64,000 nucleotides of DNA from Pseudobacter ginsenosidimutans (GTDB taxonomy: Bacteria > Bacteroidota > Bacteroidia > Chitinophagales > Chitinophagaceae), in the NCBI RefSeq assembly GCF_007970185.1, contig NZ_CP042431.1:5952001-6016000 (forward strand). The letters run 5' to 3'. The translations under genes and the position numbers were made by a program. Below are positions 14,158 through 59,418 of this stretch, piece by piece. Numbering within the stretch: the stretch's first letter is position 1; the number at the start of each line of letters is the position of its first letter. The notes under the pieces are model-generated. The model searched no databases and had not been told where the DNA came from. It saw only the letters and a program-made list of their open reading frames with translations.

Positions 14158-17106
14158 TTATCCGCCTGTTACCAACAATACAGGTTTGGTCTGACCTTCC
14201 CATAACCTGCCTGCAGCCTGCACTTTGTTACCGGGCTGAAGGTCCCAATCTCCCAGCTGCGCACCAAATGCATGGCCGGTATAGCACCTCGGCTGCATGT
14301 TTTCGTCAAAACCCATCAAACCGATACCCCATCCGCTCCGGATGATGAACACAGCTCCAGGCTGATCAGGATGGAGTTGTCCTGCCTGCTGTACGGTATT
14401 GAAGGCAGGCTCTACCAGCCATCCATCGATTCGTGAACGGCCAATGGAATAACGGAGCTTTAATACGCCATCAACCAGGGCCAGGAAACGAAGGCCTGTT
14501 CCATCATTCACAAGAATGGCTTTTGAAGCGGCACTGAAATAATGATCTGCAATGAAAGTATGACTGCTCTGCATGGGATAGCTTCCCACCAATTTGCCGT
14601 TGGGATAAATGCCAATAGGTTGTAGCTGACCGTTAGTAAGCCGGAAGATGCCGGTCTTATCTGCGGAAGCGAGTACAATCTCATCGATGCCATCTCCGTC
14701 GAGATCTGCGATCAGTTTTACGGCATCTTTCCCCGGAGCGGTATCCAGTGTCCAGGCGCCGATAGCGCTGCCGGATGGCACCATGCAAAGGGACTGGTTT
14801 TTCATCAATGAAAGTATGATAAGGCCATCGGCGCCCATCACCACGATACCTGTTCCTGACTCACTGCCGAATACACCTTTGCCGGCATATCGGTTATGGT
14901 TTGTATTTACACTCCAGTTGCCGATAGGGTGATTATTGTAGTAATGTGCTATCGTGGTGAGAACTCCGTTTTGCAATCCCAGTACCGCTAAGCCTGAGCT
15001 GTTCCACACCAGCATATCTTTTTGTGCCTGCCTTATAAAATCAGCAACGCCGAAAATGGGGTCGGTGACGCCAAGTGTCCAGGTGCCGGCGTTGCTGCCA
15101 TGTGCCAGACGGCTCAGCAGCTTGAATTTGCCATGATAGTATTTTACGATGGCAAGGCCGGTTGCAGATCGTATAAGTATCTCGTCTACGCCATCCCCAT
15201 CGAGATCTCCAGTACCTGCGATGTGCTGATCATTTATATTGTACAGCCAGTTGCCGATCATGGAATGATCAGGTACAATCGACAGTGGCTTCATCGCCGG
15301 CTCTGAAACAAAGATGCCGATGCCGTTACGGTTGCGCAGGCGGAGGGTCCAGTCGCCACAGATCCCCCAGAAATAAGCACGTTTCCTGCCCACATTCATA
15401 TGAGCGAGTGCAGCTGTACCGGACTCGGTTTTAAAATAATTGAGCCAGCAATCACCGAATGTTGTGGTGGGGCCATTCCTGAATGTGGGGGCAAAACTTT
15501 CAGGTGCGTCATTGAAAAATTTTGCCCGGGCCATCAGGGCAACACAATTGGTGAAAAAGAGGATGCCCTCAGCATTGTGCCAATGTCCGTAATGATGTTC
15601 CGTGTATCGGTGCGTGAATACTTCGGCTATACTGTTCACATTGCAACCACCGTGGATTACGAGGCTGCCAGCGGAATTTTCAAATTGTTTGTATTGCCAG
15701 AGTGGCCTGTACACGAACATGTCGGCAGCGCTGTCCTTTGTCTTGAAATTGGGCGTATAAGCCCCGTTCTCGTAGGTCCAGCGGAAAGGCGTTCCACCAA
15801 CAGCAGTTTCCAGCTGAGTATTCGTGTAGCCGGCAGCGTTGAACCAGGAGCAGCGGTTGAAAGAATGGGAAAGGATGTATTTCAATACTGCCGGTGTTTT
15901 CAGGAAATCAACATATTGCAGCAGGTTGGCATTATTCACTTTCAGTGTTGGTTTGAAATCAGTTGCTGCGTTGTTGATGAATTTTTCATAATACGCGGTA
16001 TTGAAGTCCGTTGATCCCGAAATAATCGCCGCTCTCCAGGATTGCGTTGCAAAAGCGCCCATTCGGAAACTGTGGTTCCTTTTGAAGTAGGAAACCAGCA
16101 ACTCTTTTTCCAATTCACTATCATGCCAGGTAAAAAGATTGTCTTCCTGCAAACCACCAAACAAGGGCGTTGCACTGGTAACGGTAACGGGAAGGCCATT
16201 GGCATCGAGGAAACGGTTACCATCACTGCCGGTGAAGGATGGATGCGGATTCACAGCTGCATGCCATGCGTTGATGCGGCACACAGCCAGCTCAGGCTTT
16301 GCCATTATGTTTGGGTAATTGTAATCAACTGCACTGATCTCCCTGTTCCGCTCATTTTGATGTAGCCGGATTCGCAGGAAGGATTCCGATTTTTCCATGG
16401 AGTAGATGGGATCGTCAATGAAGAACACATCCCTGAATGGTCCTTCACGTTTGATTTCAAAGGAGCTGGACGTGAATTCACAGTCTATCACATCTTCGCC
16501 TGCATACCATCCTCTCGCCGAGGTGTCAGCATCGGGGAGAGCGGCTATATCGTCCATCCAAAAATCATTTTGGACGTAAAGCTCTTCCCAGTTGCCGAAC
16601 ATATCACCAAGAATATGGTCAGCACGTTCACACATGATGCCGGTCTGCAGGGCCAGTTGTCTGGGTTGTACAAATCCCGGTGCCCAGGTAACCCTTCGCA
16701 CGATGGCGGCATCGGGAAACCTGCCGATGAGCACGAGTCCTTTCATTAGATTGAAATCATCGTATACGAAGCGTACGAACCTGCGAAGGGCCAGTATGAT
16801 CTGTCCATCTTTCTGAACAGGACCGTCGTACAATTTTGCACTGATGAAGCGAGCCTTGAATCCTGCCAGGGTCAGGTCATCGCGGTATTGTTGCAGGCTT
16901 GCACGTAATGCAGTGTCGCCGGCAGAGGTTGTGCCACTCTCTAACAGTCGCCATTCCACGAAAACCAGTATAAGCGGATCAGTTGCACCTAAAGGCGCAT
17001 GATCTTCTTCAAAACAAAATTTGAGCTGAATGATTTCGGGGAAGCCATCGCCTGTGATTCCATAATTGGCGAACTGCTCCACGAGGGTTGCAAGTTGATT
17101 TACCAT
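14158..17106 (-). CDS. Large FG-GAP/VCBS-repeat protein with possible C25-peptidase-like N-terminal region
   Basis: A 982-residue protein; the ATG at 17106 (MVNQLATLVEQF) is preferred. The C-terminal 380 residues contain at least three to four beta-propeller-like repeats with calcium-type loops (GDLDGDGVDEI, DLDGDGIDEIV), as in integrin/FG-GAP proteins. The N-terminal 600 residues have segments reminiscent of gingipain-type C25 caspase-fold peptidases (MKGLVLIGRFPDA, SLVIHGGCNVNS, ILFFTNCVALMAR), but the catalytic residues cannot be confirmed. No signal peptide is evident, which is odd for such domains. It is transcribed towards the DinB gene. Treat as hypothetical with repeats. Confidence 0.55.
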   Translation of the reverse strand: MVNQLATLVEQFANYGITGDGFPEIIQLKFCFEEDHAPLGATDPLILVFVEWRLLESGTTSAGDTALRASLQQYRDDLTLAGFKARFISAKLYDGPVQKDGQIILALRRFVRFVYDDFNLMKGLVLIGRFPDAAIVRRVTWAPGFVQPRQLALQTGIMCERADHILGDMFGNWEELYVQNDFWMDDIAALPDADTSARGWYAGEDVIDCEFTSSSFEIKREGPFRDVFFIDDPIYSMEKSESFLRIRLHQNERNREISAVDYNYPNIMAKPELAVCRINAWHAAVNPHPSFTGSDGNRFLDANGLPVTVTSATPLFGGLQEDNLFTWHDSELEKELLVSYFKRNHSFRMGAFATQSWRAAIISGSTDFNTAYYEKFINNAATDFKPTLKVNNANLLQYVDFLKTPAVLKYILSHSFNRCSWFNAAGYTNTQLETAVGGTPFRWTYENGAYTPNFKTKDSAADMFVYRPLWQYKQFENSAGSLVIHGGCNVNSIAEVFTHRYTEHHYGHWHNAEGILFFTNCVALMARAKFFNDAPESFAPTFRNGPTTTFGDCWLNYFKTESGTAALAHMNVGRKRAYFWGICGDWTLRLRNRNGIGIFVSEPAMKPLSIVPDHSMIGNWLYNINDQHIAGTGDLDGDGVDEILIRSATGLAIVKYYHGKFKLLSRLAHGSNAGTWTLGVTDPIFGVADFIRQAQKDMLVWNSSGLAVLGLQNGVLTTIAHYYNNHPIGNWSVNTNHNRYAGKGVFGSESGTGIVVMGADGLIILSLMKNQSLCMVPSGSAIGAWTLDTAPGKDAVKLIADLDGDGIDEIVLASADKTGIFRLTNGQLQPIGIYPNGKLVGSYPMQSSHTFIADHYFSAASKAILVNDGTGLRFLALVDGVLKLRYSIGRSRIDGWLVEPAFNTVQQAGQLHPDQPGAVFIIRSGWGIGLMGFDENMQPRCYTGHAFGAQLGDWDLQPGNKVQAAGRLWEGQTKPVLLVTGG

Positions 17107-22925: not shown

Positions 22926-23077
22926 GGCCCGTGGGGATATGTGAAGGGTGGCTGACGAAACGAACCAACGCTTATGTGGTTTTGATGGGCTGTGGGTAGT
23001 TTGATGGGACAGTGGTGCATAGCCAGGCTTCTTCGCTTACGTTTCGTAGGCCCGCCTTCACATATCCCGCACGGGCC
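22926..23077 (+). repeat. Repeat family 1, element A (152 nt hairpin)
   Basis: Long imperfect hairpin. The left arm (22926 on, GGCCCGTGGGGATATGTGAA) pairs with the right arm ending at 23077 (TTCACATATCCCGCACGGGC). Inside are the conserved left block (CGAAACGAACCAACGC) and right block (TCGCTTACGTTTCGTAGGCC), which also pair with each other. Three other elements share the blocks (B, C, D). The function is unknown. Confidence 0.85.
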
Positions 23078-23521
23078 CTGGCACCTCAAGGATGCATCAT
23101 TTTTTGATCACCCGGCAATGCATCCCATCACGATGGATTGGGGGGAGGGGAGGGTTGTCCTCTGTGCAGCAGCGGAAGTAAGCAGGTGCAGTGGATGCCT
23201 GAGCTAACAGGCTCTTGAATTGAAAAGTAACATGCTAACAATACAGCAGTCAAGAAAAGCAATGATGCCGTATTGAAAACAGTAATGAAATGGAATTTTG
23301 ATTGGACTTGAAATTGAAATTGGAAGGAAAATGGGAGTTGAAATAGAAATCTAAAATCTGTTTATAATGGATTATGGATTATGCTTTTGAAAGTGCCCTG
23401 CAACCATATATCAGCACTGATGTGAAGGTTAGCCCTTTGTTTTTTTAAACAGCATTATTACAAGATGGTAAAATCAAGTGCAAAATCAGGGAACTGATCT
23501 GCTGCACTATCAGGGAAATGA

Positions 23522-23668
23522 GGCAAAGGTGGTTGGGGCAGGTCGGCCTTCGAAACGTAAGCGAAAAAGCCCGGCCATATTCTACAGCCCCGTCACACCA
23601 ACTCAAAGCTCAGAAAAACCCAACTGCGTTGGTACGTTTCACAGCCGTCCTGCCCCAACCCCTTTGCC
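23522..23668 (-). repeat. Repeat family 1, element B (147 nt hairpin)
   Basis: Oriented opposite to A. Arms are GGCAAAGG-T-GGTTGGGGCAGG and CCTGCCCCAACC-C-CCTTTGCC. On the minus strand it contains the left block (GTGAAACGTACCAACGC) and the right block (TCGCTTACGTTTCGAAGGCC). The outer arm sequence is entirely different from A, yet complementary. Confidence 0.85.
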
Positions 23669-32502: not shown

Positions 32503-32651
32503 TGTTTGAGAGGGTATGAAATGCCGGTTGGAAAACGAACCGGCGCTTGGGTGGCTTTGATCAACTGTTGTTGGTTGGATGGAACAGGGGAATGCTAATG
32601 AGCTTTTTCGCTTACGTTTTCAAGGCCTCCATTTCAGACCCCGCTCAAACA
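32503..32651 (+). repeat. Repeat family 1, element C (149 nt hairpin)
   Basis: Arms TGTTTGAG-A-GGGTATGAAATG and CATTTCAGACCCCGCTCAAACA are complementary with a few bulges. The left block (GAAAACGAACCGGCGC) and right block (TCGCTTACGTTTTCAAGGCC) correspond to those of A, B and D. It lies between convergent genes. Confidence 0.85.
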
Positions 32652-59275: not shown

Positions 59276-59418
59276 GCGAAGGGATATGAAACGCCGGCTG
59301 TAAAACATACCGCCGCGGGAGAATATATTTGAGCTATTGATGGTTGGATTGAGCTATGGTTATGCTATTGAGCTTTATCGCTTATGTTTTGAAGGCCGGG
59401 GTTTCATATCCCGTTCGC
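59276..59418 (+). repeat. Repeat family 1, element D (143 nt hairpin)
   Basis: Arms GCGAAGGGATATGAAAC and GTTTCATATCCCGTTCGC are complementary with one bulge. The left block (TAAAACATACCGCCGC) and right block (TCGCTTATGTTTTGAAGGCC) are as in A, B and C, except that both carry an A-to-G type compensating change (ACAT with ATGT). It is between two genes on the same strand, with 26 nt before and about 70 after. Confidence 0.85.

Follow-up and report, generated by a model that had tools for sequence, protein, structure and literature searches.

Four hairpins in a 64-kb window

The window that we analysed is a stretch of 64,000 nucleotides of the Pseudobacter ginsenosidimutans chromosome (G000; contig NZ_CP042431.1, positions 5,952,001 to 6,016,000), and it holds four copies of a hairpin element. 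Copy A (22926..23077, + strand) adjoins the 5' end of an aldehyde dehydrogenase gene and scores 116.8 bits with a covariance model. Copy B (23522..23668, − strand; 123.7 bits) follows a ketopantoate hydroxymethyltransferase (panB-like) gene, about 10 nt past its stop codon. The two are the left and right members of a pair, and the 444 bp between them (23078..23521) contain no ORF of 100 aa. This interior carries a perfect GTGCAGCAG, read on the strand of B, on the inner side of B and a weaker ATGCATCAT on the inner side of A. The A/B interior of P. rhizosphaerae (G004) is 1901 bp long and contains two ORFs (L107 17260-18652), one of 346 aa and one of 124 aa that includes an ASCH domain. At the site of the pair in the congener G005 (L117 about 12737) we observed an unrelated hairpin with ~30-bp arms of TTTGTGGTTTGTTG-like sequence.

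Copies C and D are single. Copy C (32503..32651, +; 116 bits) lies about 20 nt past the stop codon of a Sir2-family gene and has orthologous copies in G004 and in the congener G002, where the arms differ from those of copy C yet pair, as judged by eye. The corresponding site in G003 (L115 about 15250-15740, −) holds, again by eye, about three tandem copies of a ~100-bp unit. Copy D (59276..59418, +; 120.3 bits) lies about 27 nt past the stop codon of a DUF6929-family gene. No copy was found at site D in G003 or G005, where 88 and 14 bp, respectively, separate the anchors that align in the genes on either side.

All four hairpins named by the original prediction lie at the positions given there. 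They can be aligned with each other (mean column identity 73%), and each folds better than 200 of 200 dinucleotide shuffles (z = −6.17, −7.24, −3.90 and −5.43 for A to D; copy A trimmed to 150 nt). The outer arms had been described as completely different but complementary. They are self-complementary; complete difference is too strong, as many copies keep a GGGATATG/CATATCCC consensus. That all copies are intergenic holds for copy A only if the aldehyde dehydrogenase starts at ATG 22818 and not at the in-frame TTG 22968 inside A.

Long palindromic hairpins of a different kind, based on CGCCTCCGGCG-type sequence, are present in P. rhizosphaerae; 80 kb contain five, four of them very alike (L107 about 7042 and 13093, L108 about 5093, L109 about 7231, L110 about 4838). 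A hairpin scan of our window found none as strong as these apart from copies A, B and D.

Family size and inward-facing pairs

The hairpin family is real and larger than the four copies first noted. With copy A as query, blastn gave 42 matches in the genome. A covariance model built from 35 copies gave at least 114 matches in the 7.8-Mb chromosome at E ≤ 0.01, a lower bound because 150 of 2123 candidates were scored. The last of the 114 (288170) is partial, and a model of a second core type, described below, adds one place (5820518, 50.2 bits). Two congeners have similar copy numbers. The expectation that no named RNA family would match was borne out in Rfam: nothing in the window reached the gathering score (0 matches), and three loci searched leniently yielded three sub-threshold microRNA matches, two of them over copies. 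IMG/VR, searched by exact pattern, and phage and plasmid records, searched by blastn, gave no match to the family. No description of it was found in the literature searched, most subscription journals being outside the reach of that search.

Close neighbours face inward without exception. Taking as a close pair consecutive copies less than 2 kb apart in G000 and less than 3 kb apart in G004, G001 and G002, we observed this orientation in 122 of 122 pairs (38/38, 37/37, 11/11 and 36/36, respectively). The rule is scarcely visible in the window, which contains a single close pair (A and B). The gap between G000 partners is 115-889 (median 361.5). Two thirds of G000 copies are paired and 38 of 114 are single; a lenient search of loci covering 36 of these 38 found a single inward remnant at E < 0.01 (L173). 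Three G004 pairs are represented in G000 by one copy each; pairing can therefore be lost. Single copies have weaker stems than paired ones (−37.5 vs −44.1 kcal/mol).

The GTGCAGCAG motif recurs on the 3' side of the hairpin. At least 7 of its 9 letters are present within 60 nt 3' of the model match in 68 of 114 copies, and in 53 of those the motif lies at 18-26 nt. Controls gave 17/114 for the 5' flank and 16/114 for the reverse strand.

Pair partners have cores more alike than chance (0.714 vs 0.674; 0 of 5000 permutations), but their arms (P = 0.53 and 0.92) and 3' flanks (P = 0.14) are no more alike than chance; for the outer arms, partners and strangers gave 0.585 vs 0.586 and 0.595 vs 0.610. 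Partner cores were closer within than across genomes in 21 of 34 comparisons, which is not significant (P = 0.20). Interiors of different sites share remnants (73 matches, 49 colinear), and a predicted gene lies inside 2 of 38 G000 interiors. Orthologous G004 interiors measure 80-1901 bp; their ends align and the middle often differs. An invertible interior was rejected, since 0 of 34 orthologous G004 interiors were mainly inverted; four G001 interiors could not be aligned.

A covarying stem capped by a core of nearly constant length

In each copy a core of ~91 nt sits on top of a stem of roughly 25-40 bp. Core length is 88-94 nt in 113 of 114 aligned copies. The loop, ~77 nt long, contains 9% C, a strand asymmetry that marks one strand as special. 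A G-quadruplex pattern occurs in 72 of 113 loops compared to 48 in shuffles, which is suggestive only of such a fold.

The predicted covariation was evident on most measures. Paired cells made up 94.2% of the alignment's stem cells, compared to 66.1% in shuffles and 32-54% with the partner slid by 1-3 columns, and the covariation score was 0.717 vs 0.198 in shuffles; the alignment behind these counts was fitted to the covariance model and so leans towards the model structure. One of five measures, the number of further pair types, showed no excess (46 vs 45.5 in shuffles). A structure-free ranking by mutual information over 132 columns of the same alignment placed nested stem pairs in all top 17 positions and revealed no conserved helix inside the loop. 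A 22-copy alignment spanning all three core types had double changes at 16 of 16 predicted pairs. Duplex energies agree with these data: an arm pairs with its own partner at −42.6 kcal/mol compared to −22.6 with foreign arms, and the own arm was best in 78 of 114 copies (32 of 37 in a smaller test).

Core types differ between lineages

Three core types were distinguished, with type I dominant in G000, type II in G001 and type III in G179, a genome of another genus. Dominance is not exclusive. By eye, 2 of 31 G001 copies examined are type I in a mostly type II genome, and the G000/G004 site 5573136 (C41:235605 in G004) scores higher with the type II model. That model, built from 29 G001 copies, matched G001 at 59 places, of which 54 scored at least 74 bits, and had no match in G003 or G005. 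We assigned 15 of the 31 G001 copies to G000 copy sites, some of which may be chance given the 80-bp tolerance used. Four sites correspond between G000 and G001 as whole pairs.

Among 394 genomes of the family, five matched: four of the six genus genomes, our own included, and G179. Eight candidates were scored per genome in that search, so weak relatives would be missed. A search of 59 relatives with 57 candidates each returned the identical four genus genomes. A general model run over 34 genomes matched two of them, G001 (59 times) and G179 (8 times), and none of the other 32. The G179 assembly is 84% complete, in 420 contigs, and by eye 6 of its 8 matches have the type III core. Each of these six has 27-37 matched arm bases and no more than two mismatches or gaps, and the arms differ from copy to copy; two of the six form an inward pair 84 bp apart. 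A search by exact pattern hit 26 stretches, which belong to two genomes: P. rhizosphaerae KACC 18655 and Chitinophagaceae MAG BIN25.

Gene context and a possible RNA function

We assessed intergenic context in G000 with gene calls that are codon-usage predictions made in this analysis. The outer side of the copy faces a gene 3' end in 75 cases and a gene 5' end in 37, with no gene call in 2. Half of the 75 lie within 35 nt of the gene end, and the middle half at 23-80 nt. Among 36 pairs with both neighbours called, 17 lie between convergent genes, 17 between tandem genes and 2 between divergent genes. The convergent share (17/36) exceeds that of copy-free control gaps of 100 bp or more (4/52; P = 3e-5); among all copy-free control gaps it was 12/123. 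This enrichment could reflect insertion tolerance.

The closeness to gene 3' ends, the strong stem covariation and the strand-asymmetric loop would suit a structured non-coding RNA, or part of an mRNA leader or tail, that acts after transcription, for example in protecting mRNA ends or as a site for an RNA-binding protein. Such an RNA was one of two candidates in the original prediction; a covarying helix is present, but gene context, identity in the 5' flank and mismatch types disfavour this reading. Copies next to gene 3' ends (n = 57) and those next to 5' ends (n = 25) hardly differ in arm identity, at 0.922 and 0.924 (P = 0.81; 82 of 91 copies used), and a copy beside a gene start would not be read in sense from that gene. 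Identity between G000 and G004 was 0.77-0.79 at −30 to −10 on the 5' side of the hairpin (10-nt bins), where no conserved promoter is evident. Sense-strand G.U pairs were not in excess. Counts of G.T vs A.C mismatches were 16:22 in G000 (107 copies), 16:25 in G004 (89) and 2:14 in G001 (28), or 34 vs 61 pooled (P = 0.007 towards A.C), and the commoner A.C would if anything fit the opposite strand. Arm identity by gene context and these mismatch counts both argue, indirectly, against selection on the sense RNA. The lack of a conserved helix within the loop also counts against an RNA. We consider an RNA function unlikely. Because stem conservation is independent of gene context and G.U is not in excess, we favour a domesticated, REP-dimer-like element that acts at the DNA level over a non-coding RNA.

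Stems are conserved at orthologous sites

Vertical stability was assessed against G004 for 97 of 108 listed copies, and 93 of the 97 were at sites orthologous to G000 copies. Across these 93 ortholog pairs, 2823 of 3056 stem pairs were unchanged, and 1072 differences fell in 5553 loop positions. The changed stem pairs comprised 150 broken, 54 one-sided and 29 compensated. In the 57 of 91 copies whose arms align gap-free at 75% or more, double changes that restore a Watson-Crick pair numbered 10, compared to 0.9 expected, beside 69 single changes. Stem changes are thus mostly single, with restoring doubles few but above chance, a pattern that we read as purifying selection on pairing. Arm identity did not depend on pairing of the copies (0.923 in singles, 0.922 in paired copies).

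Identity in 5-nt bins was 0.87-0.98 in the stem and 0.77 in the loop, and the same alignment procedure gave about 0.70-0.77 in the interior at 30-120 nt (10-nt bins). The difference between stem and interior suggests selection on pairing, although the neutral yardstick is uncertain because the alignable part of the remaining intergenic DNA of the window (5074 of 10321 positions) has an identity of 0.889, close to the 0.880 of window coding DNA; blast-aligned parts of interiors range from about 70 to 100% identity. The original prediction of selection on folding is supported by these data, as stems are better kept than loop and interior and compensated changes exceed chance.

The same observations bear on a neutral reading, under which a mobile element left these copies behind and arm-templated repair (palindrome-perfecting template switching) keeps their arms complementary, with no part played by selection. 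The excess of restoring double changes would be expected from such repair, as would the near-perfect, copy-specific arms of the six type III copies in G179. Copying from arm to arm alone should, we argue, leave the arms at the neutral rate, but the stem bins stand well above the interior, as far as the weak yardstick allows. The uncertainty of that yardstick led us to weight this reading slightly higher, and our preferred explanation of selected DNA hairpins slightly lower; we nevertheless regard relics repaired in this way as quite unlikely.

Genome-wide homogenisation of cores by gene conversion was rejected for G000 and G004, as paralogs within and across the genomes are equally alike (0.667 and 0.667). 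In a comparison that left out 15 of the 93 copies, whose core ends were off pattern, 29 of 78 G004 cores were nearer a G000 paralog than their own ortholog; the best paralog of a G000 core averages 0.81 anyway. One of the 29 (0.92 vs 0.67) looks like a real replacement.

Mobility and Y1 transposases

The other candidate in the original prediction was a REP/MITE-like element mobilised in trans, which fits past dispersal of the family. Y1_Tnp matches occur in all six genomes searched (G000 and five congeners), including G003 and G005, where no copy was found. The intact G000 gene (RAYT-like; L009 1435-1863, −) lies between DAHP synthase-like and aroB-like genes, named by eye from their translations. 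No hairpin copy lies in the stretches examined around either G000 Y1_Tnp match, and we rejected a RAYT/Y1 transposase as linked mobiliser. There was no target-site duplication signal in 38 pairs, the longest shared outer string being 5.32 nt compared to 5.29 for mismatched ends; old copies could have lost it. REP tags were not enriched in 114 copies: GTAG occurred at 12 5' feet (19.9 in shuffles) and 0 3' feet (7.0), and CGTC at 5 (7.7) and 5 (16.8).

These data weigh on the view that the hairpins are the ends of, or small elements mobilised by, an HUH (Y1/RAYT-like) transposase acting on single-stranded hairpins, and that transposition still shapes them. The intergenic inverted doublets do resemble REPINs (PMC3116915). 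The hairpin followed at near-fixed distance by a conserved motif may likewise recall a cleavage-site arrangement, and the transposase itself is present in all six genomes. With its genes unlinked to copies and found in copy-free genomes, no tag or target-site duplication, and 93 of 97 copies unmoved in G004, ongoing transposition of this kind is quite improbable.

A DNA-level interpretation

The family is apparently kept by selection. We tentatively favour, as the most plausible single account but at less than even confidence, a family of DNA hairpins of old origin, dispersed and two-thirds paired in inward orientation, that spread in an ancestor of part of the genus and has since been kept by selection, its stem acting as a clamp that presents the core to a trans-acting factor and its pairs serving the chromosome locally. 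Transposition in trans probably drove the first spread, with vertical inheritance in G000 and G004 thereafter. The stem would be a structural clamp from which the core is displayed, the DNA hairpin being extruded or single-stranded. The core would be read by a sequence-specific factor, probably a protein, that coevolves with core type. Two facing hairpins would probably be brought together by this putative factor, as in a REP dimer or transposon synapse, and the joined pair may serve a local function such as insulation of the neighbouring, often convergent, genes. The interior of a pair gains and loses its middle, and the stems change slowly and in part by compensation.

A more specific version is possible but rather doubtful. 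It envisages a DNA-hairpin recognition system of two separately evolving modules, a sequence-free self-complementary stem and a lineage-specific core read by the putative trans-acting factor. Most sites of a genome would have changed core type together between species, and inward pairs would be synapsed, organising or insulating chromosome segments.

In these relatives of Pseudoflavitalea, about a hundred sites per genome combine a strict facing-pair rule with stems in which pairing, more than sequence, appears to be kept. If the DNA-level reading is true, they form a natural test set for the role of hairpin DNA in bacterial chromosomes, and the trans-acting factor could be approached through the concerted switch of core type from one species to another.

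Comparison with known systems

The family resembles REP dimers in organisation and fails REP membership. As described in PMC3116915 and PMC3733652, REP dimers, REPINs and BIMEs share with it high copy number, intergenic hairpins, inverted doublets beside singlets, compensatory changes, and a location mostly between convergent or unidirectional genes, near gene 3' ends. REP elements are described in PMC3733652 as having stems of 5-13 bp, loops no longer than 20 bp and a tag (GTAG or CGTC); here, the stem is roughly 25-40 bp, the loop is about 77 nt and the tags are not enriched. REPINs, as described in PMC3116915, have conserved ends, a variable spacer, and singlets described as decaying remnants. 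In our family it is the inner core that is conserved and the outer arms that vary, and the arms of single copies are as conserved as those of doublets. The REP/REPIN hallmark of a RAYT gene flanked by repeats was not seen in the stretches examined around the two Y1_Tnp matches of G000, and the gene also occurs in genomes where no repeat was found.

Bcr1 of Bacillus is likewise an intergenic hairpin repeat of ~150 nt in tens of copies, as described in PMC2267715. Inward pairing, site-specific arms and lineage-specific cores set our family apart from Bcr1-type stem-loop repeats as far as that description extends.

Like MITEs, the copies are short, dispersed and non-coding, with remnants shared between the interiors of different sites. 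Unlike MITEs, they show no target-site duplication signal, outer arms resemble each other no more between partners than between strangers, and constraint has acted after dispersal.

The attC sites of integrons act as a folded single strand whose arms are variable but paired, with conserved outer R boxes, and are recombined by the integron integrase. The hairpins described here are like attC in that their arms vary yet stay paired, and unlike attC in that their conserved parts lie inside and not at the outer ends.
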